Position numbers and translations under genes: made by a program. The notes beneath the pieces are model-generated. The model had not been told where the DNA came from and did not search any database. It worked only from the letters and a program-made list of their open reading frames with translations. This document shows, piece after piece, positions 4,546-53,691 of a stretch of 64,000 nt of DNA. This DNA is from Pseudanabaena galeata CCNP1313 (GTDB lineage: Bacteria > Cyanobacteriota > Cyanobacteriia > Pseudanabaenales > Pseudanabaenaceae), in assembly GCF_029910235.1 (NCBI RefSeq), contig NZ_CP112874.1, positions 992,001 to 1,056,000 of the forward strand. Reading direction: 5' to 3'. Positions within the stretch are counted from its first letter, which is position 1. The number at the start of each line of letters is the position of its first letter.

Positions 4546-4730
4546 CCCTTTTTGGGCTGCTGTGTACACACAAGTTATCAGCTATATAGTGAGTTACTAA
4601 AGATCCCCCTCAATCCCCCTTGTAAAGGGGGAAGAAGAAAATTCTCCCCCCTTTACAAGGGGGGCTGGGGGGATCTAAACCCCGAAACGAAGACAGAGAA
4701 ACTTGTGTGTACAAGGTAGCCCTTTTTGGG
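4546..4730. mobile_element. 163-bp element with 11-bp target duplication between znuC and znuB
   Basis: The 11-mer CCCTTTTTGGG occurs at 4546-4556 and 4720-4730. The enclosed 163 bp (4557-4719) have imperfect inverted ends containing TGTACACACAAGTT and enclose a C/G-rich palindrome (GATCCCCCTCAATCCCCC...GGGGGATC). It has itself landed in a C/G-rich repeat beginning CCCTCACCCC. No ORF of note is present. Confidence 0.75.
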
Positions 4731-4751
4731 AGAGGGGCTAGGGGTGAGGGT

Positions 4752-5486
4752 CTATAATTCTTTCTGCATCAAAATCACACTGTCGCCGTAGGCGCGTTTA
4801 ATATTCTGGGAAGTAATCACAGTATCGCGATCACCATCGGCAATTAGTTCTTTATTCATTAGCAATAGGCGATCGTAATTATCTAAATTAGATCCAAGAT
4901 CGTGAGTGATTACTAACAGGATTTTGCTTTGCGATTTCAATTCCGCAAACACCTCAAAGATTACTTCCTCCGTTTTTTTATCGACACCCACAAACGGCTC
5001 ATCGAAAAATAGTAATTCTGCTTCTTGGGCGATCGCCCTTGCTAGAAATACTCTCTGTTGTTGACCGCCCGATAGTTCGCCAATTTGGCGATCGCGTAGT
5101 TCCCATATGCCGACACGCTGAAGCGCCGATTTGACAATGCTCTCGCAGTGACAGCCTGACTTTTTGATCCAGCCTAGCCAATTACGATGACGGGTACGCG
5201 CCATCATTACCGCACCCCAAACCGTCACAGGAAAATCCCAATCCACCTGCGATCGCTGCGGCACATAGGCAACGGTGCGAAGCTGTCGATGCAAAGCCCG
5301 CGATCGATAACGCACATGACCATTACTAGCAGGCACTAATCCCAGAATTGCCTTAAAAATCGTACTTTTGCCAGCGCCATTGGGACCAATCACCGCCACC
5401 ATTTGCCCAGAATCGATCGCAAAGCTGACATCTTCCACGGCATTGACATCGTGATAGCTGACTGCCAAATGCTCAACTTCTAGCAT
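4752..5486 (-). CDS. znuC: Zinc/manganese ABC transporter ATP-binding protein (ZnuC-like)
   Basis: A 244-residue ABC ATPase: Walker A GPNGAGKST at 34-42, signature LSGGQQQR at 138-145, Walker B LLFFDEP at 158-164 and the switch His in VITHD near 196. It would energise the permease encoded downstream. A Zur-like palindrome lies in the 94-bp divergent promoter shared with the small gene on the plus strand. Family sequence alone cannot separate Zn from Mn importers; the Zur-like site argues for zinc. Confidence 0.9.
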   Translation of the reverse strand: MLEVEHLAVSYHDVNAVEDVSFAIDSGQMVAVIGPNGAGKSTIFKAILGLVPASNGHVRYRSRALHRQLRTVAYVPQRSQVDWDFPVTVWGAVMMARTRHRNWLGWIKKSGCHCESIVKSALQRVGIWELRDRQIGELSGGQQQRVFLARAIAQEAELLFFDEPFVGVDKKTEEVIFEVFAELKSQSKILLVITHDLGSNLDNYDRLLLMNKELIADGDRDTVITSQNIKRAYGDSVILMQKEL

Positions 5487-8542: not shown

Positions 8543-8797
8543 ATGAGAGCAGTGGAAGCTACGGGGACAATTGATCGCGAAGGGCATTTATTGTTAGATC
8601 ATCCTTTTGATGTGGATATAGCTGGGCGTGTTCGTGTGATTGTGTTGTTTTCTGAACCAGATCAGGAATTGGAAGATGATCCTGATGATACGCCTATTGA
8701 GGAGGTGAAGGCGAGTTTGAAAAGGGCTTTTCAGCAAGCTAAGGCAGGGCAGCGTATTCCATTTGAAAAAATGTGGGACGGAATCGATGCCGAGTGA
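8543..8797 (+). CDS. RelN-like antitoxin, apparently without its toxin
   Basis: An 84-residue acidic protein starting MRAVEATGTIDREGHLLLDHP, a form typical of the cyanobacterial RelN-type antitoxin. The C-terminal half is charged, as expected for the toxin-binding part. In such pairs relE overlaps the antitoxin end. Here a start ATGCCGAGTGATAGTCC is visible overlapping the stop, but that frame ends after nine codons and a YhcG nuclease gene follows. A relE C-terminal fossil preceded by a matching relN end is at 7787-7924. The antitoxin therefore seems to have lost its partner. Confidence 0.65.
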   Translation: MRAVEATGTIDREGHLLLDHPFDVDIAGRVRVIVLFSEPDQELEDDPDDTPIEEVKASLKRAFQQAKAGQRIPFEKMWDGIDAE

Positions 8798-8828
8798 TAG
8801 TCCTTTGGTGTGGTAGCAATCTAAAGAT

Positions 8829-9845
8829 ATGGCAATTGAAGTTACAGAAGATTATCGAAGTTTGTTAGTGGCGGTGAAGCATCGGATTCGTGCTGCTCAG
8901 TATGAGGCTTTAAAGGCGGTTAATCGTGAGTTAATGGCGCTTTATTGGGATATTGGTGAGTTAATCGTTACTCGTCAAGAAAGCGCTGGTTGGGGTAAGT
9001 CAGTGGTGGAACAATTAGCTCATGATTTGCAGGTTGAGTTTCATGGGATGGCTGGGTTTTCGGCGCGGAATATTTGGAATATGCGAAGTTTTTATGTTAC
9101 CTACCGCACTAACGAAAAACTGCAACCATTGGTTGCAGAAATTGGCTGGACTCATAATCTGGTGATCTTAGAGAAGTGTAAAGACGATTTGCAGAGAGAG
9201 TTTTACATTCGCATGACCCAAAAATTTGGCTGGACAAAAAATGTGTTAATTCACCAAATCGAGAACAAAACTTACGAAAAGACTTTGCTAAATCAAACAA
9301 ATTTCGATCGCACTTTGTCAGAGGAGATGCGCGATCGCGCCAAGCTTGCGGTTAAGGATGCATATACATTTGATTTTCTGGAGTTAGCGGATGAACATAG
9401 CGAACGCGAACTTGAGAAGGCGATTTTGACGAGGGTGGAACCATTTTTGCAAGAGATGGGTGGGATGTTTACTTTTGTGGGTAGTCAATATCGTTTAGAG
9501 ATTAGTGATGAGGAGTATTTTATTGATTTGTTGCTGTATCACCGTGGGCTGAAGTGTTTGGTGGCGGTTGAGTTAAAGATTGGGAAGTTTTTGCCTGAAT
9601 ATGTGGGGAAGATGCAGTTCTATTTGGCGGCTTTGGACGATCGCGTGAGGTTGGAGGGTGAGAATGCGGCGATTGGAATTATTCTTTGTAAGTCAAAGGA
9701 TCGGACGATTGTGGAGTATGCGCTGCGGCAGTCGAATCAGGCGATCGGAGTTGCCACTTATCAAATTGTGTCGTCTTTGCCGTTGGAGTTGCAGGGACAG
9801 TTGCCTGCTCCAGAGCAGGTGGCTAGGTTGTTGGGGGGGATTTAG
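8829..9845 (+). CDS. YhcG-family PD-(D/E)XK nuclease, paralogue 1
   Basis: A 338-residue protein of the DUF1016/YhcG family (PF06250 with the N-terminal domain). The N-terminal 150 residues are helical, with YWDIGELI near 37-44 and the SARNIWNMRSFY motif near 79-90. The C-terminal nuclease core shows YFIDLLLYHRGLKCLVAVELKIGKF near 226-250, including the D and ExK residues. The family is found in mobile and defence-like loci; its target is not established. It lies 31 bases after the RelN-like gene and 72 bases before a second paralogue. Confidence 0.88.
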   Translation: MAIEVTEDYRSLLVAVKHRIRAAQYEALKAVNRELMALYWDIGELIVTRQESAGWGKSVVEQLAHDLQVEFHGMAGFSARNIWNMRSFYVTYRTNEKLQPLVAEIGWTHNLVILEKCKDDLQREFYIRMTQKFGWTKNVLIHQIENKTYEKTLLNQTNFDRTLSEEMRDRAKLAVKDAYTFDFLELADEHSERELEKAILTRVEPFLQEMGGMFTFVGSQYRLEISDEEYFIDLLLYHRGLKCLVAVELKIGKFLPEYVGKMQFYLAALDDRVRLEGENAAIGIILCKSKDRTIVEYALRQSNQAIGVATYQIVSSLPLELQGQLPAPEQVARLLGGI

Positions 9846-9917
9846 GCGATTTTATAATGAGATTTGATACAGAAGGTGCGAACAATCTAAAATGCTGAGA
9901 AAGTGAGAATTTAATTT

Positions 9918-10925
9918 ATGAGCGATTTAATCGATTCCTATCAGCAATTAATCGATCACATTGGCGAATGCTTGGCACAGGGGCAGCAACGCGCTTTTGA
10001 GCAGGTTAATACGCTTTTGGTAGAAACTTATTGGCAAATTGGGCAGTACATTGTGGAGTTTGAGCAGAAGGGGAATGAGAGGGCAGAATATGGTTCAAGG
10101 TTGTTAACTCAATTATCACGGGATTTGAAATCTGCTTATGGCAAAGGATTTAGTCGCCGTAATGTCTTGGATATGCGCCGCTTTTATGTTGGTTATCCAA
10201 AATGGCAGATGGTGTCTGCCAAATTAGGTTGGTCGCATTACACGGAGCTTTTGGCGATTTCGGATGATTTAGCGAGATCGTTTTATGAACAGCAATGCAT
10301 ACGCGATCGCTGGAGTGTGAGGGAACTAAAGCGTCAGAAGGATTCGGCTTTGTTTGAGCGAGTTGCCATGAGTAAGGATCGAGCAGAGATTTTGGCTTTG
10401 GCTCAGAAAGGACAAAAAATTGAGTCAGCAAAGGATGTGGTGAAAGATCCCTATGTGTTTGAGTTTTTGGATTTGCCCGATCGCAATTACTTTGAGAGTG
10501 AATTAGAAAATCGGTTGATTGTGCAGTTAGAGAAGTTTTTATTAGAACTGGGAAAGGGATTTGCATTTATCGGGCAACAGTACCGAATTACGTTAAATAA
10601 TACGCATTTTTATGTAGATTTAGTGTTTTATCATCGTATTTTGAAATGTTTTGTCTTAATTGATTTGAAAACAAGGGCGGTGCGTCATGAAGATATAGGA
10701 CAGATGAATATGTATCTAAACTATTTTCGTGCCGAAGAGAATATGGAAGATGATAATGAGCCGATTGGCATTGTGTTGGCGAGAGATAAGGATGAGATTT
10801 TGGTTGAGTATGCGACTGGGGGGATTTCTAATCAGCTTTTTGTGTCGAGGTATCAGCTTTATTTGCCCGATGTTGAGGTTTTGAAGCAGGAGTTAAGGAG
10901 GCTTTTGGATGAGAGCGATCGCTGA
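9918..10925 (+). CDS. YhcG-family PD-(D/E)XK nuclease, paralogue 2
   Basis: A 335-residue member of the same family as the gene at 8829 but clearly divergent. It has YWQIGQYIVEFEQKG near residues 36-50, FSRRNVLDMRRFY near 77-89, and a nuclease core FYVDLVFYHRILKCFVLIDLKTRA near 230-253. Here the usual ELK is DLK, which still leaves an acidic residue and the lysine. The tandem arrangement may mean a two-subunit nuclease or redundant copies. A fossil of this gene's 5' end is at 7648. Confidence 0.88.
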   Translation: MSDLIDSYQQLIDHIGECLAQGQQRAFEQVNTLLVETYWQIGQYIVEFEQKGNERAEYGSRLLTQLSRDLKSAYGKGFSRRNVLDMRRFYVGYPKWQMVSAKLGWSHYTELLAISDDLARSFYEQQCIRDRWSVRELKRQKDSALFERVAMSKDRAEILALAQKGQKIESAKDVVKDPYVFEFLDLPDRNYFESELENRLIVQLEKFLLELGKGFAFIGQQYRITLNNTHFYVDLVFYHRILKCFVLIDLKTRAVRHEDIGQMNMYLNYFRAEENMEDDNEPIGIVLARDKDEILVEYATGGISNQLFVSRYQLYLPDVEVLKQELRRLLDESDR

Positions 10926-10988
10926 CACTATGATGATGTCTGTTGATAGTTTGGGTAAAAATTATGTTGCAGTTAAGGTCAGTATATT

Positions 10989-11246
10989 GTGCTGACGACT
11001 CACTCGAAGGGCGATCGCGTGATTTCGTTGGCGGCGATCGCTTTTGGCAAGAAGTCGAGTAGTAAGGTGTATGGAGTTGATGCGATTCGGGAGAAGCTGG
11101 CAAGTTTTGAGACGATGACTTGGGGGGAGATATTGCTGGATGCGAAGATACAAAATCACAATATTTCGGTGGATAAGTTAATCAAGGAGGCTCAGGATCG
11201 CCTTTTTGAGATTTTCTCTGAGCAGTGGGATGCTAAAGTATTATGA
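10989..11246 (+). pseudogene. C-terminal fragment of an unknown island gene
   Basis: An 85-codon open frame. The first part (to about 11056) contains a piece nearly identical to the 3' end of the DUF29 gene at 12768-12794 read in another frame. The rest reads IREKLASFETMTWGEILLD and SVDKLIKEAQDRLFEIF, which also occurs at 7697-7786 and 12795-12918. The N-terminal part of the same family seems to be at 12135-12291. I regard it as a shuffled remnant rather than a gene, although the tail is intact. Confidence 0.5.
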
Positions 11247-11279
11247 AAGCTTGTAGTAGTAATAGATGAGGAAATAACT

Positions 11280-11564
11280 ATGACTCTCACTCTTGACCTT
11301 CCACCAAATTTAGAAAGCTCGTTATTTCAAGCAGCTAATCAGCAAAGTCTTACTGTTGAAGAGTTTGTGATTCAAATGTTGATATCGGCTTTTATGCAGA
11401 AAGAGAAGCAAAAGAAAGCTGTAAGTTTATTAGAGTCTTGGTTAAGTGATGCTGATATTGAAGAACAAAAAACAACGGGTGCGTACTTGATTGAGGCGTT
11501 AGATCGAGATAGGTTATCCGATCGCTTGTTATTTCCTGATGAAATGAAAGGTAAGTCTTGGTGA
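11280..11564 (+). CDS. Putative antitoxin of a PIN-domain toxin
   Basis: A 94-residue protein beginning with TLTLDLPPNLESSLFQAANQ, a helical N-terminus common in cyanobacterial antitoxin-like proteins next to PIN toxins, and ending in a charged tail. GAGGAAATA precedes the start. The stop TGA overlaps the GTG start of the PIN gene, which indicates translational coupling. The DNA-binding fold cannot be assigned with confidence; it may be ribbon-helix-helix. Confidence 0.7.
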   Translation: MTLTLDLPPNLESSLFQAANQQSLTVEEFVIQMLISAFMQKEKQKKAVSLLESWLSDADIEEQKTTGAYLIEALDRDRLSDRLLFPDEMKGKSW

Positions 11565-12007
11565 AAAGGTCTATTTTTCTCGATTCTGGAGTCATCGGGC
11601 TGATTACCAATCCCAATCTGTCAGCAGAAGGTATAAGTTGTGCTAAGTGGCTTTTATCGCATATCAATAAAGGAATTCAAATTATTATTCCAGAAATTGT
11701 TGACTACGAAGTTCGGCGAGAGTTGTTGAGAGCGAATAAGGTTAAGGGGCTTGCAAGGTTAGATGAGTTGATTGATTCTTTGGAATATCTGCCAATTAAT
11801 ACGGAAGCGATGCGTCAAGCGGCAGTTTTTTGGGCGGAAGCGCGTCAAAAGGGACAACCAACGGCTTCGGATAAGACTATTGATGCGGATATGATTTTAG
11901 TTGCTCAGGTGGTTGTGATGGATGTTCAAAATAAGGTTATTGCGACAACTAATGTTGGTCATTTATCTCGTTTCGTGGCTGCTGATTTGTGGCAAAACAT
12001 CTTGTAG
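11561..12007 (+). CDS. PIN-domain toxin (VapC-like ribonuclease)
   Basis: A 148-residue PIN-domain protein. Acidic residues expected for the metal site are visible: LDSG near residue 8, EIVDYEVRREL near 44-54, and DADM near 108-111, followed by ATTNVGHLSRF. The usual role is a toxic endoribonuclease neutralised by the upstream antitoxin. The GTG start overlapping the antitoxin stop is preferred over the TTG one codon earlier. Confidence 0.82.
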   Translation: MKRSIFLDSGVIGLITNPNLSAEGISCAKWLLSHINKGIQIIIPEIVDYEVRRELLRANKVKGLARLDELIDSLEYLPINTEAMRQAAVFWAEARQKGQPTASDKTIDADMILVAQVVVMDVQNKVIATTNVGHLSRFVAADLWQNIL

Positions 12008-12335
12008 CTTCGTGTTTTTGGGGAGCGTAGAGATCGCTAATCACAGCACTTTTTAGGCAAATATTAGATTGCAACTTATTAAATTGCGTGATTTCGTTGG
12101 CAGCGATCGCTGAGTATTATGGAAGTTTGTAGTAATGGTTAAGAAGGTCAAGCAGCCCAAACAGGCTAGAGAGGTTCTATCTCCTAGTAAGCAACCTCGA
12201 ATAGCAGTAGATTCTAATAGTTATTAGCAGAAAAGACCTAGTTGGCGAGTTGCGAAGATGGAGTTTGTCGATCCTTTTGGCATATTCTAGATAAAAATTG
12301 TAGTATAGTATTTAGGTTAGTATGTAGAGGCGAAA
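12008..12335. other. Gene-free stretch with fossils
   Basis: It holds a short HIP1-containing segment related to the 3' flanks of DUF29 and the unknown island gene (12085-12125) and the N-terminal fossil at 12135-12291. A weak AT-rich promoter-like region precedes the second DUF29 gene. Confidence 0.5.
12135..12291 (+). pseudogene. N-terminal fossil of the unknown island gene
   Basis: The frame reads MVKKVKQPKQAREVLSPSKQ, continues to a TAG at about 12225, and resumes in the same frame with KRPSWRVAKMEFVDPFG. An in-frame stop and the missing rest mark it as decayed. The family's C-terminal parts are nearby at 10989 and 12795. Confidence 0.5.
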
Positions 12336-12794
12336 ATGACAGAGTTACTTACACCTCAATCTCTTTATGACCAAGATATTTTGCTTTGGGTCGAAGATAC
12401 GGTCGCTAAGCTGAAAGCCCATGATTTTGCAAATTTAGATCTAGAAAATTTAATTGAAGAGGTTGAGTCTTTGGGAGTTTCGCAAAAAAAAGAGTTGCTG
12501 AATCGCTTAATCACTTTGTTGGAGCATTTACTGAAGCGGATTTATGTGCCTTTACCCAATGATTACAACGGATGGGAAAGAACAATTCGGAACCAACGCA
12601 AAAAGTTAGAGGCGTTATTAGTGGAAGTACCCAGTCTAAAGACAAGATGGAACATCAGTTTTAGTTCTGCTTGGAATATTGCGCTTAAAACTGTCAGGGC
12701 TGAATATTCAAAAGTAGAGTTCCCTGATTCGTGGCAATTTTCTTCGGATTTAGAACCAATGTTGGGCGATCGCTTTTGGCAAGAAGTCGAGTAA
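12336..12794 (+). CDS. DUF29 family protein, copy 2
   Basis: A 152-residue DUF29 protein. The start ATG is preceded by AGAGGCGAAA. The N-terminal third is almost the same as copy 1 at 7976, while the rest (LLEHLLKRIYVPLPNDYNGW and onward) is only related. The last codons (GDRFWQEVE) overlap a stretch that has been copied to 11030-11056. Function unknown. Confidence 0.85.
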   Translation: MTELLTPQSLYDQDILLWVEDTVAKLKAHDFANLDLENLIEEVESLGVSQKKELLNRLITLLEHLLKRIYVPLPNDYNGWERTIRNQRKKLEALLVEVPSLKTRWNISFSSAWNIALKTVRAEYSKVEFPDSWQFSSDLEPMLGDRFWQEVE

Positions 12795-37060: not shown

Positions 37061-37169
37061 ACAAATGATCGGGACATAACAAATCATTGGAGCGGGATAA
37101 AGAGTGATAATTTGGTTATAAGCGAAAGATACAGCAATTACCGATCAAACGAACCACACGACCTATAAC

Positions 37170-37943
37170 TTGGCGCGGATGAATATGTTTTTGCATAACA
37201 TCAATTACGACAAGTTCAATATGCAGTTGGGCAACACGCTGACCGATCCGCATTTTGCTGATGACAAGCCCTTTGATGCGATCGTCTCTAACCCGCCCTA
37301 TTCGGTGAACTGGATTGGTAGTGATGACCCAACGCTGATTAATGACGATCGCTTTGCGCCTGCTGGTGTACTTGCGCCCAAATCTAAGGCTGATTTTGCG
37401 TTTGTGTTGCATTGTTTGAGCTATTTATCGAGTAAGGGTCGTGCGGCGATCGTCTGCTTCCCTGGAATTTTTTACCGTGGCGGTGCGGAAGCCAAAATCA
37501 GAAAGTATCTGGTGGATAACAACTATGTGGAAACGGTGATTGCCCTTGCGCCTAATTTATTTTTTGGCACGACGATCGCGGTGACGATTTTGGTGCTATC
37601 GAAACACAAGCCCGATACTGCCATCCAGTTTATTGATGCCAGTGGATTGTTTAAAAAAGAAACCAACACTAACACCCTGACCGATGACCACATTGCCGAA
37701 ATCATGGGGGTGTTCGATCGCAAGGAAAACGTTGCTCATTTTGCGCGATCGGTGCTTTTTGAAGAGATTGCTGCTAATGATTACAATCTGTCGGTGAGCA
37801 GCTATGTGGAAGCTGAGGATACCCGCGAAATCACGAATATCACGGCGCTGAATGCGGAATTAAAAACCACTGTTGCCAAGATCGATCGCTTGCGTGCTGA
37901 GATTGATGCGATCGTGGCGGAGATTGAGGGAGAAGGATCATGA
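37170..37943 (+). pseudogene. hsdM: Type I restriction methyltransferase HsdM, C-terminal half only
   Basis: The frame gives 257 residues from the first ATG, and recognisable family sequence begins at about 37156 ([20 protein letters not shown]). The catalytic NPPYS motif is present near residue 37 of the remnant, and the C-terminal coil is complete. The N-terminal helical domain and the AdoMet-binding motif I, roughly the first half of the protein, are absent. The break coincides with the end of a palindromic repeat. It is unlikely to methylate DNA. The stop overlaps the fic start (ATGA). Confidence 0.88.
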
Positions 37944-38602
37944 CAATGGAAAATAAATTAAACATCACTAATCAGGTGGATCTGGCTAAGGCTGAGGAAA
38001 AAATCAGCAAACAAAAGGCAAAGCTGTTTTTTGACTCTGGCGATATTGATAAGGTGGAAGTTGGCACGTTCAAAGGGCTTGCCTTCATTCATGCCTATTT
38101 GTTTTTACCCCCCTTAATCCCCCCTTCGCAGGGGGGAAACTCAGATCCTCCCCCTTTGCAAGGGGGAGTTAGAGGGGGTGCTGGTAAAATCCGCGAGGTG
38201 AATATCTCTAAGGGTAATTTCCGTTTTGCGCCAGTGCTTTATCTAAAAGCGGCTCTGGAACAAATCGACGCAATGCCACAAGGGAACTTTGATCAGATTA
38301 TTGAAAAATATGTGGAGATGAATGTTGCTCACCCTTTCCGTGAGGGCAATGGACGCGCTACGCGCATTTGGCTAGACTTGATGCTCAAAAAAGAAATCAA
38401 GCAGGTTATAGATTGGAATCTAGTGGATAAGGATGATTATCTTTCCGCTATGCAGCGTAGTGTGGTGAAGGATGTGGAAATTAAGGTGTTGTTGAAAAAT
38501 GCGCTGACGGATCAAATTGGCGATCGCGCTTTGTTTATGAGGGGTATTGATGTTAGTTATTACTATGAGGGTTATAGCGAATTTAAAACGGAGGATCTGT
38601 AG
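37940..38602 (+). CDS. Fic family protein with an in-frame repeat insertion
   Basis: A 220-residue Fic protein. The active-site motif [14 protein letters not shown] is near residues 133-146, and [16 protein letters not shown] near 88-103 forms part of the flap. Fic enzymes transfer AMP or other groups to proteins; Fic genes are often seen in type I restriction operons. Residues about 54-80 ([23 protein letters not shown]) are encoded by a C/G-rich repeat inserted where relatives have a short FGDIYDFAG-like link. The reading frame is kept. The start overlaps hsdM; an internal ATG at 37946 is also possible. Confidence 0.88.
38104..38181. repeat. C/G-rich palindromic repeat inside fic
   Basis: TTTACCCCCCTTAATCCCC to GAGGGGGTGCTGGTAAA, with inner CCCCCCTTCGCAGGGGGG and CCCCCTTTGCAAGGGGG hairpins. 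It matches the repeat at 46448-46523 in layout. Confidence 0.8.
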
Positions 38603-38918: not shown

Positions 38919-39296
38919 ATGCAAAAAGACATCATCAACTCTCTAACTGATAAAGGTGACACTGCTCTATTTGGCAAATCTACCCAAGCCATGAAAGCCC
39001 AATGGAAAGTACCCGATCGCAGATCTCTTGCGGATTTTGCACCAACTATTATTTTAAAGGCTAAAGATTTTGCGGCTGAAATTACGATCTTTAATGCACA
39101 GCAAAATCAAATGAAGACAGAGCCAGAAATTTCTAGTGAACATATCACGAATAACCAAGCGGTTCGCAAGACGTTACTAGAACGGGGCATTCGTCCCGAA
39201 TCTTTGCCCCCTGCTGAAGATGTCAAAAAAGTCGAACGCCGTCTTGCTTCAGACGAGAAAAAATCTCTTAAAAATCCCGATATTCTAGACAATTGA
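38919..39296 (+). CDS. DinD-like / Bro-related protein, C-terminal part
   Basis: A 125-residue protein. APTIILKAKDFAAEITIFN and NNQAVRKTLLERGIRPESLP, then AEDVKKVERRLASDEKKSL resemble the C-terminal half of DNA-damage-inducible protein D-like proteins, which often lie in type I restriction loci. The Bro-N-like N-terminal domain is missing, and a repeat occupies the upstream gap. It is therefore either a fragment or a short variant. It lies 25 bases before hsdS. Confidence 0.55.
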   Translation: MQKDIINSLTDKGDTALFGKSTQAMKAQWKVPDRRSLADFAPTIILKAKDFAAEITIFNAQQNQMKTEPEISSEHITNNQAVRKTLLERGIRPESLPPAEDVKKVERRLASDEKKSLKNPDILDN

Positions 39297-39321: not shown

Positions 39322-40515
39322 ATGAGTGATATGAATTTTCTGGAAAGGTTGTTGGATGGAGTGGCGGTGGAGTGGAAGCCGTTGGGGGAGCTTGCAGAAA
39401 ACCTTGATTTTATGCGTAAACCTGTCGCAAGTGGGTCAAGAGATTCTGGTGAAATCCCATATTATGGTGCATCTGGAATTGTTGACTATGTAAAAGACTA
39501 TATTTTTGACGGTGACTTTTTGCTTGTTTCAGAAGATGGAGCAAATTTGGTAGCAAGAAATACCCCCATAGCATTTAGTATTAGCGGAAAAAGCTGGGTA
39601 AACAATCATGCTCATATACTCAAGTTCGATACTTATGCTGAACGTCGGTATATTGAATATTATCTAAACAGTATTGACTTAACTCCATACATATCAGGAG
39701 CTGCCCAGCCAAAACTAAACCAAAAGAATTTAAATAGTATTAAAATTCCAAATCCATCTCTTGCGATTCAAGCCGAAATCGTGCGGATTTTGGACACTTT
39801 TACAGCGCTGACTGCCGAGTTGACCGCCGAACTTAGCGCTGAGCTAAGCGATCGCCAAAAGCAATATAACTACTACCGCGATCGGCTGTTGACTTTTGAA
39901 GAAGGTGAAGTGGAGTGGAAGACATTGGGAGACGTATCCCTCAAATCATACTCTGGTAGTACTCCCACAGCAGGCAAATCAGAATATTACGATGGTGGCA
40001 CAATTCCTTGGTTAAGAACGCAAGAAGTAAGGTTTTCTGACATAGAAGAAACAGAAATTAAGATAACTCCTTCTGCATTGAAAAATTCATCCGTCAAATG
40101 GATTCCTAGAAATTGCGTTATTATTGCGATCTCAGGCGCAACCGCAGGACGATCTGCAATCAATAAAATTCCATTAACAACTAACCAGCACTGTTGCTGT
40201 TTGGAAATCGATCCAGAAAAAGCCTTGTATCGATATGTTTTTCATTGGGTAAGTCTTAACCATGAAAACCTCAAAGGACTGGGGCAAGGTGCAAGAGGTG
40301 ACATCAACTCAGGAATTATAAAAAGCTTTAAAATCCCAGTTCCACAACTCAAAGAACAAGCCCGCATCGTCACCATCCTCGACAAATTCGACACCCTCAC
40401 CCATTCCATCAGCGAAGGCTTGCCCCGTGAAATCGCCTTGCGGCAACAGCAATACGAATATTACCGCGATTTGTTGTTAAGTTTTCCCAAAGTGGAGGAA
40501 GGGGCAAACAATTAA
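39322..40515 (+). CDS. hsdS: Type I restriction specificity subunit HsdS
   Basis: A 397-residue HsdS with two target recognition domains (about 1-150 and 195-345), each followed by a helical conserved region. The central helix ends in TALTAELTAELSAELSDRQ, three tandem TAEL/SAEL units of 12 bp (39811-39846). A strong GGAGGTGAT site precedes the start. It would direct the HsdM/HsdS complex to a split recognition sequence. Both halves are intact, but the partner hsdM here is truncated. The last codons lie in a 218-bp repeat shared with the end of the YhcG gene. Confidence 0.93.
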   Translation: MSDMNFLERLLDGVAVEWKPLGELAENLDFMRKPVASGSRDSGEIPYYGASGIVDYVKDYIFDGDFLLVSEDGANLVARNTPIAFSISGKSWVNNHAHILKFDTYAERRYIEYYLNSIDLTPYISGAAQPKLNQKNLNSIKIPNPSLAIQAEIVRILDTFTALTAELTAELSAELSDRQKQYNYYRDRLLTFEEGEVEWKTLGDVSLKSYSGSTPTAGKSEYYDGGTIPWLRTQEVRFSDIEETEIKITPSALKNSSVKWIPRNCVIIAISGATAGRSAINKIPLTTNQHCCCLEIDPEKALYRYVFHWVSLNHENLKGLGQGARGDINSGIIKSFKIPVPQLKEQARIVTILDKFDTLTHSISEGLPREIALRQQQYEYYRDLLLSFPKVEEGANN

Positions 40516-40712
40516 TTTCTAGGTAGGGGCAGAGCATTCCTGCAACTATTGATGCTTATCACTAGAATTGGGATACAGGAATGCTCTGCCCTAAACTTAA
40601 CGCGATCGCAAGTTAATCCTCAACTGCGGAGAGGGTAGAGCATTTGCCAATCGAGATTCTAGCGAAAAGTTGAGAAATTGTGACGCAAATGCTCTACCCC
40701 TACATCAAAATT
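40495..40712. repeat. 218-bp direct repeat, copy 1
   Basis: It starts in the last codons of hsdS (GAGGAAGGGGCAAACAATTA), includes inverted arms GGGCAGAGCATTCCTG and GGGTAGAGCATTTG with their complements, and ends near TACATCAAAATT. The second copy at 41861 begins in the last codons of the YhcG gene. Confidence 0.9.
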
Positions 40713-40740
40713 ATTTTCCCTGCTTTAGAGGACAAAAACC

Positions 40741-40834
40741 AATGACCAATTATAAGGCGATCGCAAAAAACAATATAACTACTACCGCAACTTGTTGTTA
40801 AGCTTTCCCCAATCTAAGGAGGATGAGAAATAAG
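40741..40834 (+). pseudogene. Scar joining an hsdR start to an hsdS end
   Basis: ATGACCAATTATAAGGCGAT is a near copy of the first codons of hsdR (MTNYNAIA). It is joined to a second copy of the last hsdS codons (QYNYYRNLLLSFPQ in another frame). It indicates past recombination in this locus. Confidence 0.65.
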
Positions 40835-41881
40835 ATGAGCAACTTACAAAAAAACGAATTAACCGATCTAGGTGCTGATCCACTACTTCTTGAAATAAAG
40901 ACCTTGATTGAAGAAGGTCGTAACAAGGCAATTATGGCGGTAAACAGCGCCCTAACCCTAACCTATTGGCAAGTTGGCAGACGGATCAATCAGGAAGTGC
41001 TTCGTGGAGAGCGAGCGGAATATGGTAAGCAAGTAGTGGAATTACTGGCAAAGGAACTTGTTTTATTTTATGGAAAAAGCTTTGCCGCTAGAAATATCAG
41101 ACGCATGATGCAATTTGCAGAGACCTTTCCTGATTTTGAGATTGTGTCACCACTGGTGTCACAATTAAGCTGGACGCACTTTACCCTTTTGCTGCCCCTG
41201 CCAAATCATGAAGCCAGAATGTTTTATGCTAACCAAGCAATTACAGGCAAATGGAGCAAACGGGAACTGCAAAACCAAATTGAGCGTAAAGCCTTTGAGC
41301 GCAGTGAAATTTCTAATACTAAGCTGTCATTAGTCAAAGCAGATCATTTGCACGGAAACTTCAAAGATCCTTATTTTCTTGATTTTCTGGGTTTAAAAGA
41401 TGGTTACTTGGAAAATGAACTAGAAAACGCTCTAATAAAGGAACTGGAACTATTCATTTTAGAACTAGGCAAAGGCTTTGCATTTGTAGAGCGACAAAAG
41501 CGCATGATCATAGACGGAGAAGATTTTTATCTCGACTTACTTTTCTTTCACCGCAAACTAAAACGACTGATAGCGATCGAATTGAAAATTGGGAAATTTA
41601 AAGCAGCCCATAAAGGGCAGATGGAACTGTATCTAAATTGGCTCGACAAGTATGAACGAACCGAAGATGAACACGCTCCGATTGGTCTTATTCTCTGCGC
41701 CGAAGCAGGATCGGAGAAGGTAGAACTGCTTAATATGCAGAAAGATAACATCATGGTTGCTGAGTATTGGACTAATCTCCCTCCTAAACAACTATTAGAA
41801 GAAAAACTTCATCATGCCCTAATTGAAGTAAAGGAAAGACTAGCGGAGCAAAAGTTTTTAGAGGAAGGGGCAAGCAATTAA
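40835..41881 (+). CDS. YhcG-family PD-(D/E)XK nuclease, paralogue 3
   Basis: A 348-residue protein of the DUF1016/YhcG family. It has YWQVGRRINQEV near 44-55, FAARNIRRMMQFAE near 87-100 and the nuclease core FYLDLLFFHRKLKRLIAIELKIGKF near 230-255 with D and ExK. The start at 40835 is chosen because AAGGAGG directly touches the earlier ATG at 40823 but is 12 bases before this one. The gene is bounded by 218-bp direct repeats and could be lost as a unit. It is closer in core sequence to the paralogue at 8829 than to that at 9918. Confidence 0.87.
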   Translation: MSNLQKNELTDLGADPLLLEIKTLIEEGRNKAIMAVNSALTLTYWQVGRRINQEVLRGERAEYGKQVVELLAKELVLFYGKSFAARNIRRMMQFAETFPDFEIVSPLVSQLSWTHFTLLLPLPNHEARMFYANQAITGKWSKRELQNQIERKAFERSEISNTKLSLVKADHLHGNFKDPYFLDFLGLKDGYLENELENALIKELELFILELGKGFAFVERQKRMIIDGEDFYLDLLFFHRKLKRLIAIELKIGKFKAAHKGQMELYLNWLDKYERTEDEHAPIGLILCAEAGSEKVELLNMQKDNIMVAEYWTNLPPKQLLEEKLHHALIEVKERLAEQKFLEEGASN

Positions 41882-42079
41882 TTTTTAGGTAGGGGCAGAG
41901 CATTCCTGCAACTGTTGATGCTTATCATTAGATTTTGTATACAGGAATGCTCTGCCCTAAACTTAACGCGATCGCAAGTCAATCCTCAACTGCGGAGAGG
42001 GTAGAGCATTTGCCAATCGAGATTCTAGCGAAAAGTTGAGAAATTGTGACGCAAATGCTCTACCCCTACATCAAAATTG
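41861..42079. repeat. 218-bp direct repeat, copy 2
   Basis: A near-identical copy of 40495-40712, starting in the last YhcG codons (EEGASN) and ending before the higBA control region. Confidence 0.9.
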
Positions 42080-42130
42080 TTTGCAGATTTCTGATGTCCT
42101 CAAACAGATTCAGGAACGCCGACAGCAATT

Positions 42131-42168
42131 TGTTTACATATTGACAACTAGTTGTCAATATGTAAACA
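42131..42168. promoter_or_regulatory. Perfect 38-bp palindrome, probable HigBA operator
   Basis: Each arm is 19 bases (TGTTTACATATTGACAACT and complement), with the centre between 42149 and 42150. It lies 82 bases before higB. The AT-rich core, TTGACA-like part and position fit an autoregulatory operator bound by the HigA helix-turn-helix protein. Confidence 0.75.
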
Positions 42169-42249: not shown

Positions 42250-42549
42250 GTGCATCTTATCTCGGTCGGAAAACTGATTAAAGCTGCTGCTCAATACCCT
42301 AATACAGTCGAAATAGTTAAAAACTTCGCCAAAAAAGTTGAAAACTCTAACTGGAAAAATCTGATCGATGTGCAAGCCGACTATCCATCTGCTGAAGCCG
42401 TTGGTAGGTTTACAGTTTTCAATATTAAAGGCAATAGATATCGCCTAATTCTGGCGATCGACTACGAAAGCCAAGTCGCATACTTTAAATACTTTCTCAA
42501 CCACGCTGACTACAGCAAGGATGAATGGAAAAATGACCCTCACTATTAA
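42250..42549 (+). CDS. higB: HigB-type mRNA interferase toxin
   Basis: A 99-residue HigB (PF09907) starting at GTG after AAGGAAGATCCC. WKNLIDVQADYPSAEAVG near 36-53 and FNIKGNRYRLILAIDYESQV near 58-77 are the family signature, and YFKYFLNHADYSKDEW contains the conserved tail. It cleaves mRNA on the ribosome when free. As usual for this group, the toxin gene comes first. Confidence 0.92.
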   Translation: MHLISVGKLIKAAAQYPNTVEIVKNFAKKVENSNWKNLIDVQADYPSAEAVGRFTVFNIKGNRYRLILAIDYESQVAYFKYFLNHADYSKDEWKNDPHY

Positions 42550-42952
42550 CAGAGATAGCTATGTAGAGTTGCTTAATAGATACGAAATCAGTCCAAAGAT
42601 CATCGAAACGCAGCCAGAATACGAGCAATTTCTTACGGTTACAGAAAATCTTCTATCTAAGCGCCATGAACGCACCGAAGCCGAAACTGCACTATTCATG
42701 TTGCTAGTAAAACTGATTCGAGACTACGAAGAAAAAACCTATTCTTTTCAAGAATGGATAAACACCAAGCCCCATGAATTCCTACAGCATTTAATGGAAG
42801 CAAGGGAAATCAAGCAAGTTGAACTAGCTAGAGCAACTGGTTTAAATAAAGGACTAGTATCAGCAATACTTAGTGGCAAAAGAGAGATTAGCAAAACTCA
42901 AGCCAAGAAATTGGGAGAATACTTTAATGTTTCTCCTGCTGCTTTTATTTAA
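42533..42952 (+). CDS. higA: HigA antitoxin with helix-turn-helix
   Basis: About 139 residues from the ATG at 42533 (the frame opens at 42521), overlapping the end of higB. The C-terminal helix-turn-helix QVELARATGLNKGLVSAILS is followed by GKREISKTQAKKLGEYF. It binds HigB and represses the pair, probably at the 38-bp palindrome. Its stop is 12 bases before hsdR. Confidence 0.92.
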   Translation: MTLTINRDSYVELLNRYEISPKIIETQPEYEQFLTVTENLLSKRHERTEAETALFMLLVKLIRDYEEKTYSFQEWINTKPHEFLQHLMEAREIKQVELARATGLNKGLVSAILSGKREISKTQAKKLGEYFNVSPAAFI

Positions 42953-42964
42953 TAAGGTTGAATC

Positions 42965-44755
42965 ATGACCAACTACAACGCGATCGCCGAATCCAATAAC
43001 TTTATCATTCTTGAACAATACAGCAAGCAATCAAGAGTTAAGGAAAGCTACCAAAGCGAATATGACTTAGAGGGCGAGTTTATTCAGGATTTAGTAAATC
43101 AAGGCTATCAATACCTACCCAGCATCACCACCCCCCAAACCATGTTAGCCAACGTCCGCGAGCAATTGCAGACACTAAATAACGTGCAGTTTAGCGATCG
43201 CGAATGGCAGCGTTTTGTCGAAACCTATTTAGATAAACCGAGCGACAGCATTACCGATAAAACCCGCAAAATCCATGACGACTATATCCTTGATTTTACA
43301 TTTGATGATGACCGCATTCAAAACATCTACCTCCTCGACAAAAAGAACCTTGCCCGTAACAAAGTCCAAGTCATCAAGCAATTTGAACAAAAGGGTAAAC
43401 AAGCCAATCGCTACGATGTCACCATCTTGGTAAACGGCTTACCCCTCGTCCAAATAGAACTAAAAAAGCGCGGCGTAGCCATTCGGGAAGCCTTTAACCA
43501 AGTGCATCGCTACAGCAAAGAAAGCTTTAACGCCGAACATTCCCTCTATAAATATCTGCAACTGTTTGTCATTACCAACGGAACCGATACCCGCTACTTT
43601 GCCAACACCACCCAGCGCAATAAAAATAGCTTTGACTTCACCATGAACTGGGCGAAAGCCGATAACAACCTGATCAAAGACCTGAAAGACTTTACCACCA
43701 CATTTTTTCAGAAAAATACTCTGCTCAGTGTCTTATTGCAGTATTCAGTTTTTGATGTGAATGATACTTTGCTGGTGATGCGCCCCTACCAGATTGCCGC
43801 CACCGAGCGCATTTTGTGGAAAATCAACAGCGCTTACCAAGCCAAACAATGGAGCAAAATTGAGAGCGGCGGCTATATCTGGCACACCACAGGCTCAGGC
43901 AAAACCCTAACCAGCTTTAAGGCGGCACGACTGGCGACCGAACTAGATTTTATCGACAAGGTGTTTTTTGTGGTCGATCGCAAAGACCTCGATTACCAAA
44001 CCATGAAGGAATATCAACGCTTTTCGCCCGATAGCGTCAATGGCTCCAACAGCACGGCGGGGCTGAAAAGTAATCTGGATAAAGACGACAACAAAATCAT
44101 CGTCACCACGATCCAGAAACTGAATAACCTGATGAAAACCGAAAGCGACCTAGCCATCTACAACAAGCAGGTCGTATTTATTTTTGATGAATGCCACCGC
44201 AGCCAGTTTGGTGAGGCGCAGAAGAACCTACGGAAAAAATTCAAGAAGTTTTATCAGTTTGGATTCACTGGCACGCCCATTTTTCCGCAAAACGCTCTGG
44301 GTGCAGACACCACCGCCAGCGTGTTTGGTCGTGAGCTACATTCCTATGTGATCACCGACGCGATCCGTGATGAAAAAGTACTGAAGTTCAAGGTGGATTA
44401 CAACGATGTGCGCCCAAAATTCAAAGCCATTGAAACCGAGCAGGACGAGCAGAAGCTAAACGCCGCCGAAAACAAACAAGCCCTGTTACACCCCAATCGC
44501 ATTCGCGAGATTTCCCAATACATCTTGAATAACTTCCGCCAAAAAACGCACCGCTTGCAAGGGGGCGCTTATCAAGCCAGCAAGGGCTTTAATGCCCTGT
44601 TTGCCGTGAGCAGTGTGGACGCTGCCAAGCTGTATTACGAAACATTTAAGCAGTTGCAATCTCAAGAACCCCCTCTAACTCCCCCTTTTGAAGGGGGAGA
44701 ACCGAGCCTCCCCCCTGCTAAGGGGGGACTGAGGGGGGGGTACAAAAAACCCTAA
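42965..44755 (+). CDS. hsdR: Type I restriction HsdR, N-terminal part up to a frameshift
   Basis: 596 residues. The nuclease domain has D151, E165 and K167 (QIELKK). The helicase part has TGSGKT at 309-314, DECH at 408-411 and a GFTGTP motif near 433-438. The frame then enters a C/G-rich repeat (about 44669-44741, encoding [20 protein letters not shown]) and stops. The natural continuation [15 protein letters not shown] is in another frame immediately afterwards. One extra base in the G8 tract at 44733-44740 would restore a single frame of about 1060 codons. Confidence 0.9.
44670..44742. repeat. C/G-rich repeat inside hsdR with a G8 tract
   Basis: CCCCCTCTAACTCCCCCTTT and CCTCCCCCCTGCTAAGGG hairpins end in a run of eight G (44733-44740). 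It has the same layout as the repeats in fic and at 46448. It replaces a short variable link between helicase subdomains. Confidence 0.82.
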
Positions 44756-44802
44756 AAATCGCCACCATTTTTTCCTTTGCCGCCAATGAAGCACAGGATG
44801 CA

Positions 44803-46149
44803 GTGGGAGAGATATCGGATGAAGGCTTTGATGTATCAGCCATGAATAGCAGCGCCAAAGAATTTTTGAGTGTGGCGATCGCTGACTATAACGCCCTGTT
44901 TAAAACCAACTTCAGCGTCGATAACAACGGTTTTCAAAACTACTACCGCGATCTTGCCAAGCAAGTAAAAGCCAAAGAAATCGACCTGCTGATCGTGGTG
45001 GGGATGTTCCTGACGGGATTTGATGCGCCTACCCTCAATACCCTGTTTGTCGATAAAAACCTGCGCTATCACGGTTTGCTGCAAGCCTATTCGCGCACCA
45101 ACCGCATTTATGATGCCACCAAAACCTTTGGCAATATCGTCACCTTCCGCGATTTAGAACAAGCCACCATCGATGCCATTACCCTGTTTGGCGATAAAAA
45201 CACCAAAAACGTGGTGCTGGAAAAAAGCTACAGGGAATACATGGGCGGCTTTACCGATGTGGTGACGGGTGAAGCACGGCGCGGCTTTGTGGAGGTGGTG
45301 ACAGAATTAGAACAGCGTTTTCCCAACCCCGACGAGATTGTTTTAGAAAAAGATAAAAAAGACTTTGCCAAGCTATTTGGTGAATATTTGCGCGTGGAAA
45401 ACGTATTGCAAAATTACGATGAATTTGCCAGCCTGAGAGCCTTGCAATATGTCGATGTGAATGACTCGGCGGCAGTTGAAGTATTTAAAGCCAAGCATTA
45501 TTTAAGTGATGAAGCCCTGACGACACTGCAAACAATCAAGGTTCCGAGCGATCGCACCATTCAAGATTACCGATCCACCTACAACGATATCCGCGACTGG
45601 TTGCGCCGTGAAAAAGCGGGGAGCGAAAAAGAAAAATCCGCGATCGATTGGGATGATGTGGTGTTTGAAGTGGATTTGCTAAAATCCCAAGAAATCAATC
45701 TGGATTACATTCTTGAGCTAATTTTTGAGCAGAATAAAAAGAATAAAAGTAAGGGCGAATTGATCGAAGAAGTGCGCCGCTTGATTCGAGCCAGCCTAGG
45801 TAATCGCGCTAAAGAAAGCCTAATTGTGGATTTTATTAATCAAACCAATCTCGATGAGATGGCAGATAAAGCCAACATCATTGATACATTCTATAAATTT
45901 GCCCAAGCCGAGCAAGCCCGCGAAGCTGATGAGTTGATTCGTTCCGAAGGCTTGAAGGTCGAAGAAGCCAAGCGTTATATCAGGGTCTCCCTGAAACGCG
46001 AGTTCGCCAGCGAGAATGGGACTGAGTTAAATTCAACACTGCCGAAAATGAGTCCGCTTAATGCACAATACAAAACCAAGAAACAAAGCGTTTTCCAAAA
46101 AATTGCAGCGTTTGTTGAGAAGTTTAAAGGCGTAGGCGGTCAGATTTAG
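44803..46149 (+). CDS. hsdR: Type I restriction HsdR, C-terminal part after the frameshift
   Basis: 448 residues from a GTG, but family sequence starts before it at 44755 ([17 protein letters not shown]). It contains the second helicase half, with [20 protein letters not shown] and [11 protein letters not shown] motifs, and the helical C-terminal region that binds the methylase core. By itself it has no nuclease or Walker A. With the 5' part it would form a normal-length HsdR. Confidence 0.88.
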
Positions 46150-51548: not shown

Positions 51549-53691
51549 GTGCGATTCGTTTAGCGCGAAACACGGTAAACAGTCCGTAGATAAACGCTAG
51601 AGCCAAGTCTCCTAAGACTAGCTTAACTGTCCAGACGATGAGAGTGAAAGTCTCTCCGTCTAAACTCAAGACTGACTCCTTACCTGCCCACATTGAGTAA
51701 ACTCGAACTTTACAGGATGAAGCTGGGAACAGGGTGCAAACAGACACTAATTGCAAGTGACACTGGCGCTAACAGGGAGTCCCCAAGATGAAACCGAGCC
51801 TAAAAAAGCAACCTACGAGAAGGCAGCCGCAATATTAAAGACTGACCTCGCCAGAGATAAGTATCCCGCCGCACCATCACCCTAGTAGCGGCAAGAGTAA
51901 GGGGTTCTGGCGGTTGAAGTGGCTACATCTAAAGGGACAATCAATCATCTGGACGGAACGAATAAAAACGAGTCTAAGGTCTGTAAATTGTCGAATTTAT
52001 GGTAGACCACTACGAGAGGAATAATCCCTTAGATTCGGGTAGGATGGGGCGTAATTGCCCCAAGGTATTCAGAACACACAAACTAGAGCAGACTATGGTT
52101 AGACACAGCAGAAATGTTAGTGAACTATGGAAAGCGTTACCTTGGAAGAAATTTCGAGTGAACCTTTTCAAGCTACAAAAGCGAGTGTATAAAGCGGTTC
52201 AAGTTGGAGACAAGCAAAGAGCGAAGTCAATCCAAAAACTAATTCTCAAATCTCAATCGGCTAGATTGTTAGCAATCCGACAAGTAACACAACTAAATGC
52301 AGGTAAGAGAACAGCAGGTATAGATGGTAAAGCATCCCTCTCATTCGAGGAACGTCTAGTACTAGCTGATGTATTAGCTAAAAACTATATCAACTGGGAA
52401 CACCAAGGCTTACGAGAAATTCCTATCCCTAAAAAAGATGGGACAACCCGAATGCTAAAAGTGCCTACCATCGCCGATAGAGCTTGGCAATGCCTAGCAA
52501 AATACGCTCTTGAACCCGCACATGAAGCAACTTTCCATGCAAGGAGCTATGGATTTAGGGCAGGACGTTCAGCACATGATGCTCAGAAAATCCTACAACT
52601 AAACCTAAAAAGTAATGCAAACGGAATCAATAAACGAGTCATTGAACTGGATATTGAAAAATGCTTTGACCGCATCAGCCACGCTGCAATCATGGACAAC
52701 CTAATCGCCCCAAGGGGACTAAAGCTAGGTATTTTCAGATGCCTTAAAGCTGGAGTAAATGTAGGATTTCCAGACCAAGGAACGCCTCAAGGTGGAGTGG
52801 TCAGTCCATTGTTAGCAAATATCGCATTGAATGGGATAGAGGATATTCACTATAGCGTTAGATATGCTGACGACATGGTAATTATTCTTAAACCTCAAGA
52901 CGATGAAGCGAAAATACTTGTTAGAATCAGCAATTTTCTAGCATCAAGAGGAATGAACGTTAGTGCAAGAAAGACTAAGATAACTGCTACGAAAGATGGC
53001 TTTGACTTTCTCGGATGGCATTTCAAGTGTCAGAAAAATGGAAAGTTTCGCAGTACACCCTCAGTGGCAAACTATAAAGCTTTCTGTAAAAAGGTTAAAG
53101 CCATCGTCAATAACCCAAACATTGGTGCAACGGTCAAAGCTCAAAAGCTAGCACCTGTTGTTAGAGGTTGGAGAAACTACCATAAACATTGCAAGATGGA
53201 TGGCGCAAGGAATTCCCTCTGGCACATCAATCATCGCGCATTTAAGGTGTTTAACAAGGAAACTAAGCAGAATTGCCAGAGTTGTGAAGCTCTAATAAGA
53301 AAAGCCTTCCCTGATGTTCCTTACTCCGAAAACAAACATATCAACGTCAAAGGCGCGAAATCTCCTTATGATGGAGATATGGTCTACTGGAGCGAGCGTA
53401 ACAGCAAGCTCTATGACAGTAACACCTCTAAAGCTCTAAAACGGCAAAGCCATTCATGTCAATCCTGCGGATTAAAATTCCTAGGAGATGAAACAATCCA
53501 TCTACACCACGTAGATAGAAATCATCAAAATTGGAAGCAGGGAAACCTTGTAGCAATACATGAATCCTGCCACCATTACATCCACATGAGCAAAAGCGAC
53601 AGCTAAGAATATCGGGAGCCGTGTGCGGCGAAAGTCGCACGCACGGATCTAACTGAGAGGGGCGGGGCGTAATAGCCTCCCTCGACTCAAC
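51549..53691 (+). mobile_element. Group II intron
   Basis: The 5' end GTGCGATTCG at 51549 fits the GUGYG consensus. Domain V, starting GAGCCGTGTGCGGCGAAAGT, is at 53616-53649. Domain VI follows with a probable branch A at 53685 bulged opposite TGAG/CTCA. The 3' end in AC is near 53691 (a few bases uncertain). It encodes a reverse transcriptase. The exon sequence on either side was not recognised as a gene; the right exon contains GAAATGTAACGCACC. Confidence 0.85.
52095..53606 (+). CDS. ltrA: Group II intron reverse transcriptase/maturase with HNH domain
   Basis: About 503 residues from MVRHSRNVSELWKAL; the frame opens 32 codons earlier at 51999. Reverse transcriptase motifs: AGIDGKASLSF, SYGFRAGRSAHDA, IELDIEKCFDRI, GTPQGGVVSPLLANIALNG and the catalytic YADD. 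A maturase X domain follows. The C-terminus has CQSCGLKFLGDETIHLHHVD and a later CHHYIH, an intact HNH endonuclease. It would support splicing and retrohoming. All key residues appear present. Confidence 0.93.
   Translation: MVRHSRNVSELWKALPWKKFRVNLFKLQKRVYKAVQVGDKQRAKSIQKLILKSQSARLLAIRQVTQLNAGKRTAGIDGKASLSFEERLVLADVLAKNYINWEHQGLREIPIPKKDGTTRMLKVPTIADRAWQCLAKYALEPAHEATFHARSYGFRAGRSAHDAQKILQLNLKSNANGINKRVIELDIEKCFDRISHAAIMDNLIAPRGLKLGIFRCLKAGVNVGFPDQGTPQGGVVSPLLANIALNGIEDIHYSVRYADDMVIILKPQDDEAKILVRISNFLASRGMNVSARKTKITATKDGFDFLGWHFKCQKNGKFRSTPSVANYKAFCKKVKAIVNNPNIGATVKAQKLAPVVRGWRNYHKHCKMDGARNSLWHINHRAFKVFNKETKQNCQSCEALIRKAFPDVPYSENKHINVKGAKSPYDGDMVYWSERNSKLYDSNTSKALKRQSHSCQSCGLKFLGDETIHLHHVDRNHQNWKQGNLVAIHESCHHYIHMSKSDS

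Follow-up and report, generated by a model that had tools for sequence, protein, structure and literature searches.

The type I restriction-modification operon in the stretch of Pseudanabaena galeata DNA analysed here (64,000 nucleotides, referred to as the window) probably represents a tandem array of defence cassettes, which, to judge from sequence comparison, would have been built between hsdS and hsdR by unequal recombination between alleles. The operon is EcoprrI/PrrC-like, and a cassette would consist of the end of hsdS, one or more cargo genes and the start of hsdR. A long direct repeat, short scars made of gene ends, the presence of the same scars in several genomes and a turnover of cargo can all be observed directly. 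Such a pattern suggests a way in which bacteria may acquire spare defence genes with neither a transposase nor an integrase.

The genes hsdM, hsdS and hsdR are found in this order on the forward strand, with cargo between the last two. The hsdM gene is a remnant (37146-37943; tblastn and Pfam N6_Mtase) that covers residues 252-514 of 516. It lacks the first ~251 residues, and no close match to this N-terminal part was found elsewhere in this genome. The Fic-family gene linked to hsdM (37940-38602, forward; Pfam Fic) contains an in-frame insert that resembles a hairpin repeat and accounts for 24 letters of the protein; the corresponding gene of G040 and G039 encodes 201 amino acids and does not have the insert. 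The small gene 5' of hsdS (38919-39296), which matches the C-terminal part of PADLOC PDC-S13, is possibly a truncated cargo gene of the hsdM-hsdS interval.

The specificity subunit gene hsdS (39322-40515, forward; Pfam Methylase_S and its open reading frame) is followed by yhcG (40823-41881, forward; Pfam, PADLOC and its open reading frame), the start of which, judged by homology, is more likely at 40835 than at 40823. The YhcG protein contains the DUF1016_N and YhcG PD-(D/E)XK domains (Pfam E-values 5e-46 and 3e-47) and matches PDC-S02 (E-value 2e-127), which makes it a member of a candidate anti-phage family according to the PADLOC listing. A search of viral contigs for this YhcG gave no match. 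The genes of a HigB-type toxin (42250-42549, forward; Pfam HigB_toxin) and a HigA-type antitoxin with a helix-turn-helix domain (42521-42952, forward; Pfam HTH_3; 94% protein match in locus L098) come next, and the frames of YhcG, HigB and HigA are all open. The hsdR gene (42965-46149, forward; open reading frames, Pfam and comparison) is split into two open reading frames, 42965-44755 and 44803-46149. Its frame is lost after a hairpin-like insert at ~44660-44746, and this loss may reflect a sequencing error; G019 has a similar insert in an open frame. An active type I system needs intact hsdM and hsdR; both look broken in the window, and the restriction system is probably inactive. Outside the operon region, positions 53614-53691 match an Rfam group II intron with 57 bits, the sole Rfam match of the window.

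The cargo of the hsdS-hsdR interval changes from genome to genome. Among the 390 genomes of the class that were searched, about 16 genomes from several families, including this one, have an hsdR of at least 84% DNA identity. The hsdR genes of these relatives are 84-93% identical in DNA to that of the window, yet the cargo differs and, across about 17 cyanobacterial genomes with a near-identical hsdR, can be YhcG, PrrC, HEC-01, PD-Lambda-2, DUF559, a RelA/SpoT-like protein, VapBC, HigBA or nothing, where the names are based on Pfam and PADLOC matches and sequence similarity and stand for predicted functions. There is no cargo in G213 (locus L104). In G275 (L105), the present type of yhcG, encoding a YhcG that is 97% identical, stands alone, and G059 (L103) has another yhcG. 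This other, G059-type yhcG is combined with HEC-01 in G040 and G039 and with a PD-(D/E)XK protein in G030, and the same PD-(D/E)XK protein is found together with HigBA and VapB in G189 (L098). The remaining combinations are PD-Lambda-2 and VapBC in G084, PrrC and a RelA/SpoT-like protein in G237, DUF559 and VapBC in G178 and G019 (the contig of the latter starts inside the interval), and a RelA/SpoT-like protein alone in G261. Another locus of G189 (L099, reverse strand, 8768-12512) carries a row consisting of a truncated yhcG, a RelA/SpoT-like gene, PD-Lambda-2, a remnant of the G059-type yhcG and HigBA. Both yhcG genes of this locus are now remnants, and its history of insertion and loss is readable. 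When part of the L099 array was searched for in plasmids, single pieces such as HigBA were matched, but not the array. PrrC-like genes occupy the interval in 38 of 71 non-cyanobacterial loci, the HsdR proteins of which are 76-85% identical, and in one cyanobacterial locus (L102).

These comparisons support a proposal of the first-pass annotation that a cassette-like exchange site lies after hsdS: near-identical hsdR genes are accompanied by differing cargo, one genome has an empty interval, and most of the arrays contain scars. A conserved presence of yhcG, which that annotation had named as the finding that would count against its proposal, was looked for across the relatives, and yhcG proved not to be fixed.

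Between their cargo genes, the cyanobacterial loci often contain short duplicates of the start of hsdR and the end of hsdS. A pooled set of hsdR heads and hsdS tails was used to search the hsdS-hsdR interval in 84 loci, including 13 from cyanobacteria (one of which, L112, represents the empty form). Extra copies are present in 8 of the 13 cyanobacterial loci versus 1 of the 71 others (Fisher p = 2.5e-7, which overstates independence because the loci are related). All of the extra copies are on the operon strand, and none were found in control stretches of equal length downstream of hsdR. Three partial contigs (L071, L108 and L193) contain further copies. The search of a sister type I family from the same genus (L194-L198) revealed no comparable array, only one 13-residue hsdS-tail match in L194. 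Among the non-cyanobacterial loci, L161, whose record is deposited as a Rickettsia MAG, has two hsdS-like open reading frames and an extra hsdS tail before hsdR.

The breakpoints at which the hsdR head is joined to the hsdS tail vary: they fall in GCGATCGC in the window and in AGCGAARGCT and CGCGA in L099, and the joint of G040 and G030 has little or no microhomology. The hsdR head is joined to a VapB leader in four genomes (loci L071, L098, L100 and L193) and to a RelA leader in three (L099, L102 and L108). The same joints recur across different cyanobacterial families, and because several of them are shared by descent, only about 5-6 events are independent. Some of the head copies arose within a lineage, since one head copy of L099 is closest to the hsdR of its own locus, as exchange between close alleles predicts, and since the scar head and the true hsdR of G297 (L193, reverse strand, ~117-160 and ~938-980) contain, between GCG and ATCGC, in-frame inserts of 21 bp that resemble each other. 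The mini-ORF formed by the hsdR head has, in the majority of co-directional cases, a stop codon that overlaps the next start codon; the exceptions are the window and G040/G039, and in G030 it is a short leader, not the PD-(D/E)XK gene, that the stop codon overlaps. Translational coupling presumably favours the retention of the hsdR-head pieces.

In the window, yhcG is bracketed by two copies of a direct repeat, R1 (40495-40716) and R2 (41861-42082), both on the forward strand and delimited by sequence comparison. The first-pass annotation was right about the bracketing and about the position of the repeats, which begin within the final codons of hsdS and yhcG, and the length it gave, 218 bp, becomes 222 bp. 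The copies align without gaps, have 9 mismatches (96% identity) and are 1366 bp apart from start to start; a match of this length and identity is far beyond chance. The EEGA(N/S)N tail that the two genes had been said to share is present as well: hsdS ends in ...VEEGANN* inside R1 (stop at 40515), and yhcG ends in ...LEEGASN* inside R2 (at 41881). The common tail is one block copied into both gene ends and does not indicate kinship of the genes. Recombination between R1 and R2 that would delete yhcG, as predicted from the repeats, is possible on paper. Other searched operons of this hsdR family do not have the repeat around their cargo, and the idea that the 222-bp repeats are a general exchange site has to be given up. 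By comparison of the loci, the putative exchange sequences shared by the operon family are the hsdS tail and the hsdR head. A transposon with 222-bp terminal direct repeats was also considered and rejected, for there is only yhcG with the scars between R1 and R2, and no transposase or recombinase.

Most of R1 is a 182-bp double-hairpin core with the ends GTAGGGG...CCCCTAC (40523-40704, no strand assigned), which was recognized by genome searches and folding; its counterpart in R2 is at 41889-42070. The core has a fold z-score of -6.6 and is matched 24-26 times in this genome; each of the 26 genomes of the genus that were searched contains matches as well. It thus resembles the REP/MITE-like dispersed repeats, which are also palindromic and present in many copies, but in the window one copy has been duplicated along with its flanks, so that the two enclose a gene. 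Neither a transposase nor a named family was identified for the dispersed repeat. R1 and R2 have 28 bp on the left and 12 bp on the right in common, and these flanks are absent or only loosely matched at the other copies in the genome. The next best long copy is 81% identical and lacks the shared flanks, and short partial matches reach 83%. Given these flanks and the higher identity of the pair, the sequences suggest that R1 and R2 are most likely a single duplicated block rather than two separate insertions.

The region between R1 and yhcG contains pieces of an earlier arrangement, all on the forward strand. The remnant TTTAGAGGACAAAAACCA (40724-40741), directly 5' of an hsdR start, is the native 3' end of the present yhcG type, and near-identical sequences precede the hsdR starts in L071, L097, L099 and L105. 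It is followed by the hsdR-head scar ATGACCAATTATAAGGCGATCGC (40742-40764), which sequence comparison identifies as the first 23 bases of an hsdR, and by an hsdS-tail scar (40765-40833, stop at 40831-40833), which is the native upstream context of the present yhcG type in L105 and L099. The hsdR-hsdS scar previously placed at 40741 is therefore real, an hsdR start joined to the 3' end of an hsdS, and begins at 40742. The joint lies within GCGATCGC (40757-40764). As this motif is frequent (93 occurrences in the 64 kb), it is a plausible microhomology and not a specific site.

On the far side of R2, positions 42085-42134 (forward) are the 5' remnant of a different, older yhcG, with an 82% nucleotide match to L072/L073 at the yhcG start. 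The older type is the gene that follows hsdS in G040 and G039, and the intact hsdS end of the window is the native context of this type. In G275, the present type of yhcG comes directly after hsdS and runs straight into hsdR, an arrangement that indicates the native context of the present type. The older remnant after R2 and the matching hsdS end imply that the stretch from R1 to R2 can be read as inserted into an older junction of hsdS with yhcG. The insert has the order yhcG end, hsdR head joined to hsdS tail, yhcG, which corresponds to a circular permutation of a normal cassette. None of the searched genomes showed a parental locus in which hsdS is followed by the hairpin block alone.

We infer the following course of events and route of recombination. 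Alleles with different cargo would recombine unequally, and a cassette would be gained. The hsdR start of one allele would join the hsdS end or the cargo leader of the other, usually at a microhomology of a few bases, and the other side would be resolved by ordinary homology in hsdR or hsdS. The product would have the order hsdS, cargo 1, hsdR head joined to hsdS tail, cargo 2, hsdR, and later recombination within the repeated gene ends could swap or remove cargo. Homology-facilitated illegitimate recombination, a single crossover of a circularised fragment, or tandem duplication with later exchange of cargo might each serve as the general route. The hsdS of the window would originally have preceded the older yhcG, of which only the 5' part is left, and the permuted cassette carrying the present yhcG would have entered this site flanked by the 222-bp hairpin-bearing blocks. 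The resulting order might have arisen when a circularised cassette entered by a single crossover at the hairpin block, or through a tandem duplication and subsequent deletions; the single crossover appears to fit the permuted order best. For R1 and R2 of the window, a separate origin outside the general scheme is also conceivable. More tentatively, the cyanobacterial type I operons may possibly act as self-made cassette platforms, which would use their own gene ends as recombination sites and the hsdR-head pieces as translated leader peptides that couple the cargo. Each added defence gene would then be coupled to the operon at once, without an integrase.

The most serious competing explanation, although an unlikely one, is that replication slippage or template switching, aided by the hairpins, doubled within this genome the segment comprising the hsdS tail, yhcG, the repeat and the hsdR head, and that the first of the two yhcG copies was later lost through a deletion running from the GAGGAAG word at the hsdS end to that at the yhcG end, so that R1 and R2 remained. 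The repeats themselves would need no incoming DNA. The native hsdS end of G040 reads GGAGGAAG, and GAGGAAG is found at the junction between yhcG and the repeat. The insert common to the scar head and the true hsdR of G297 and the L099 head copy nearest its own hsdR also agree with a local origin. Furthermore, in G040 and G039 a similar double-hairpin element of the same class is enclosed by two direct copies of the hsdS start (L072, reverse strand, 4581-5058; 115 bp with 96% identity in G040), and hairpin-driven duplication stays a rival for this reason. However, neighbouring cassettes contain unrelated genes, so that cargo exchange would be required anyway, and the sequence after R2 is the older yhcG remnant instead of the expected yhcG tail and hsdR head.

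It is rather improbable that a mobile hairpin element inserted twice independently, at the hsdS end and at the yhcG end, and that the array is otherwise unrelated to the repeats. Two insertions would agree with the dispersal and the fixed GTAGGGG/CCCCTAC ends of the core and with TTTAGAGGA, which is found just left of the R2 flank and just right of the R1 flank, like a 9-bp target duplication, but they leave the shared flanks and the 96% identity of the pair, compared to 81% for the next best long copy, without explanation. A degenerating defence island, in which the head and tail pieces are passive debris, also seems an improbable source of the pattern. Although the hsdM without its N-terminus, the hsdR out of frame and the two L099 yhcG remnants are signs of decay, the same joints are kept in several genomes, the mini-ORF stops overlap start codons in most co-directional cases, and the pieces are nearly confined to cyanobacterial loci. 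An integron-like system with a dedicated recombinase acting at the hsdR-head/hsdS-tail junction, suggested by the modular cargo and the recurrent boundaries, is very improbable and was rejected, as the head and tail breakpoints differ between joints, with no constant recombination site, and family searches matched no recombinase among the cargo genes.

Unequal recombination between alleles would offer a testable route for the stacking of defence genes without the enzyme of a mobile element, and it bears on how embedded defence genes reach restriction operons and change so fast. The joints are still readable: the short copies of the hsdR start and the hsdS end mark the events and make the cargo traceable. 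The head and tail copies also offer a simple signature in the sequence by which new candidate defence genes can be sought.

Variable accessory genes are located between the hsd genes of type I loci in Campylobacter (the rlo and mlo genes), and the AAA+DUF4276 pair of G040/G039 presumably resembles the rlo type. These loci are not known to have tandem head/tail joints. Defence genes embedded in restriction operons are already known. Stacked arrays with duplicated hsdR and hsdS ends, and head/tail joints in general, were not found described in the literature searched, much subscription content being outside the search. In enteropathogenic E. coli (EPEC), DarTG2 lies between hsdS and hsdR, and the site has been called a potential recombination hotspot (PMC12255303). 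The passages considered here describe defence or toxin-antitoxin cargo at the same site as in the window, but mention neither a duplication of gene ends nor tandem cassettes where the cargo borders on the hsd genes. Homology-facilitated illegitimate recombination is known from laboratory transformation and conjugation (PMC3240628). Such a process, homologous at one end and illegitimate at the other, would produce joints like those observed; no report of it at hsd loci was found in the literature searched. The classic case of an embedded gene is EcoprrI/prrC, in which the gene of an anticodon nuclease lies in a type IC restriction-modification operon (PMC3874165). The window has the same order of hsdM, hsdS, cargo and hsdR, and its hsdR belongs to the family that hosts PrrC. 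In contrast to EcoprrI, the cargo of the window is YhcG and HigBA rather than PrrC, and the cyanobacterial loci stack their cargo with scars of the hsdR head and the hsdS tail.
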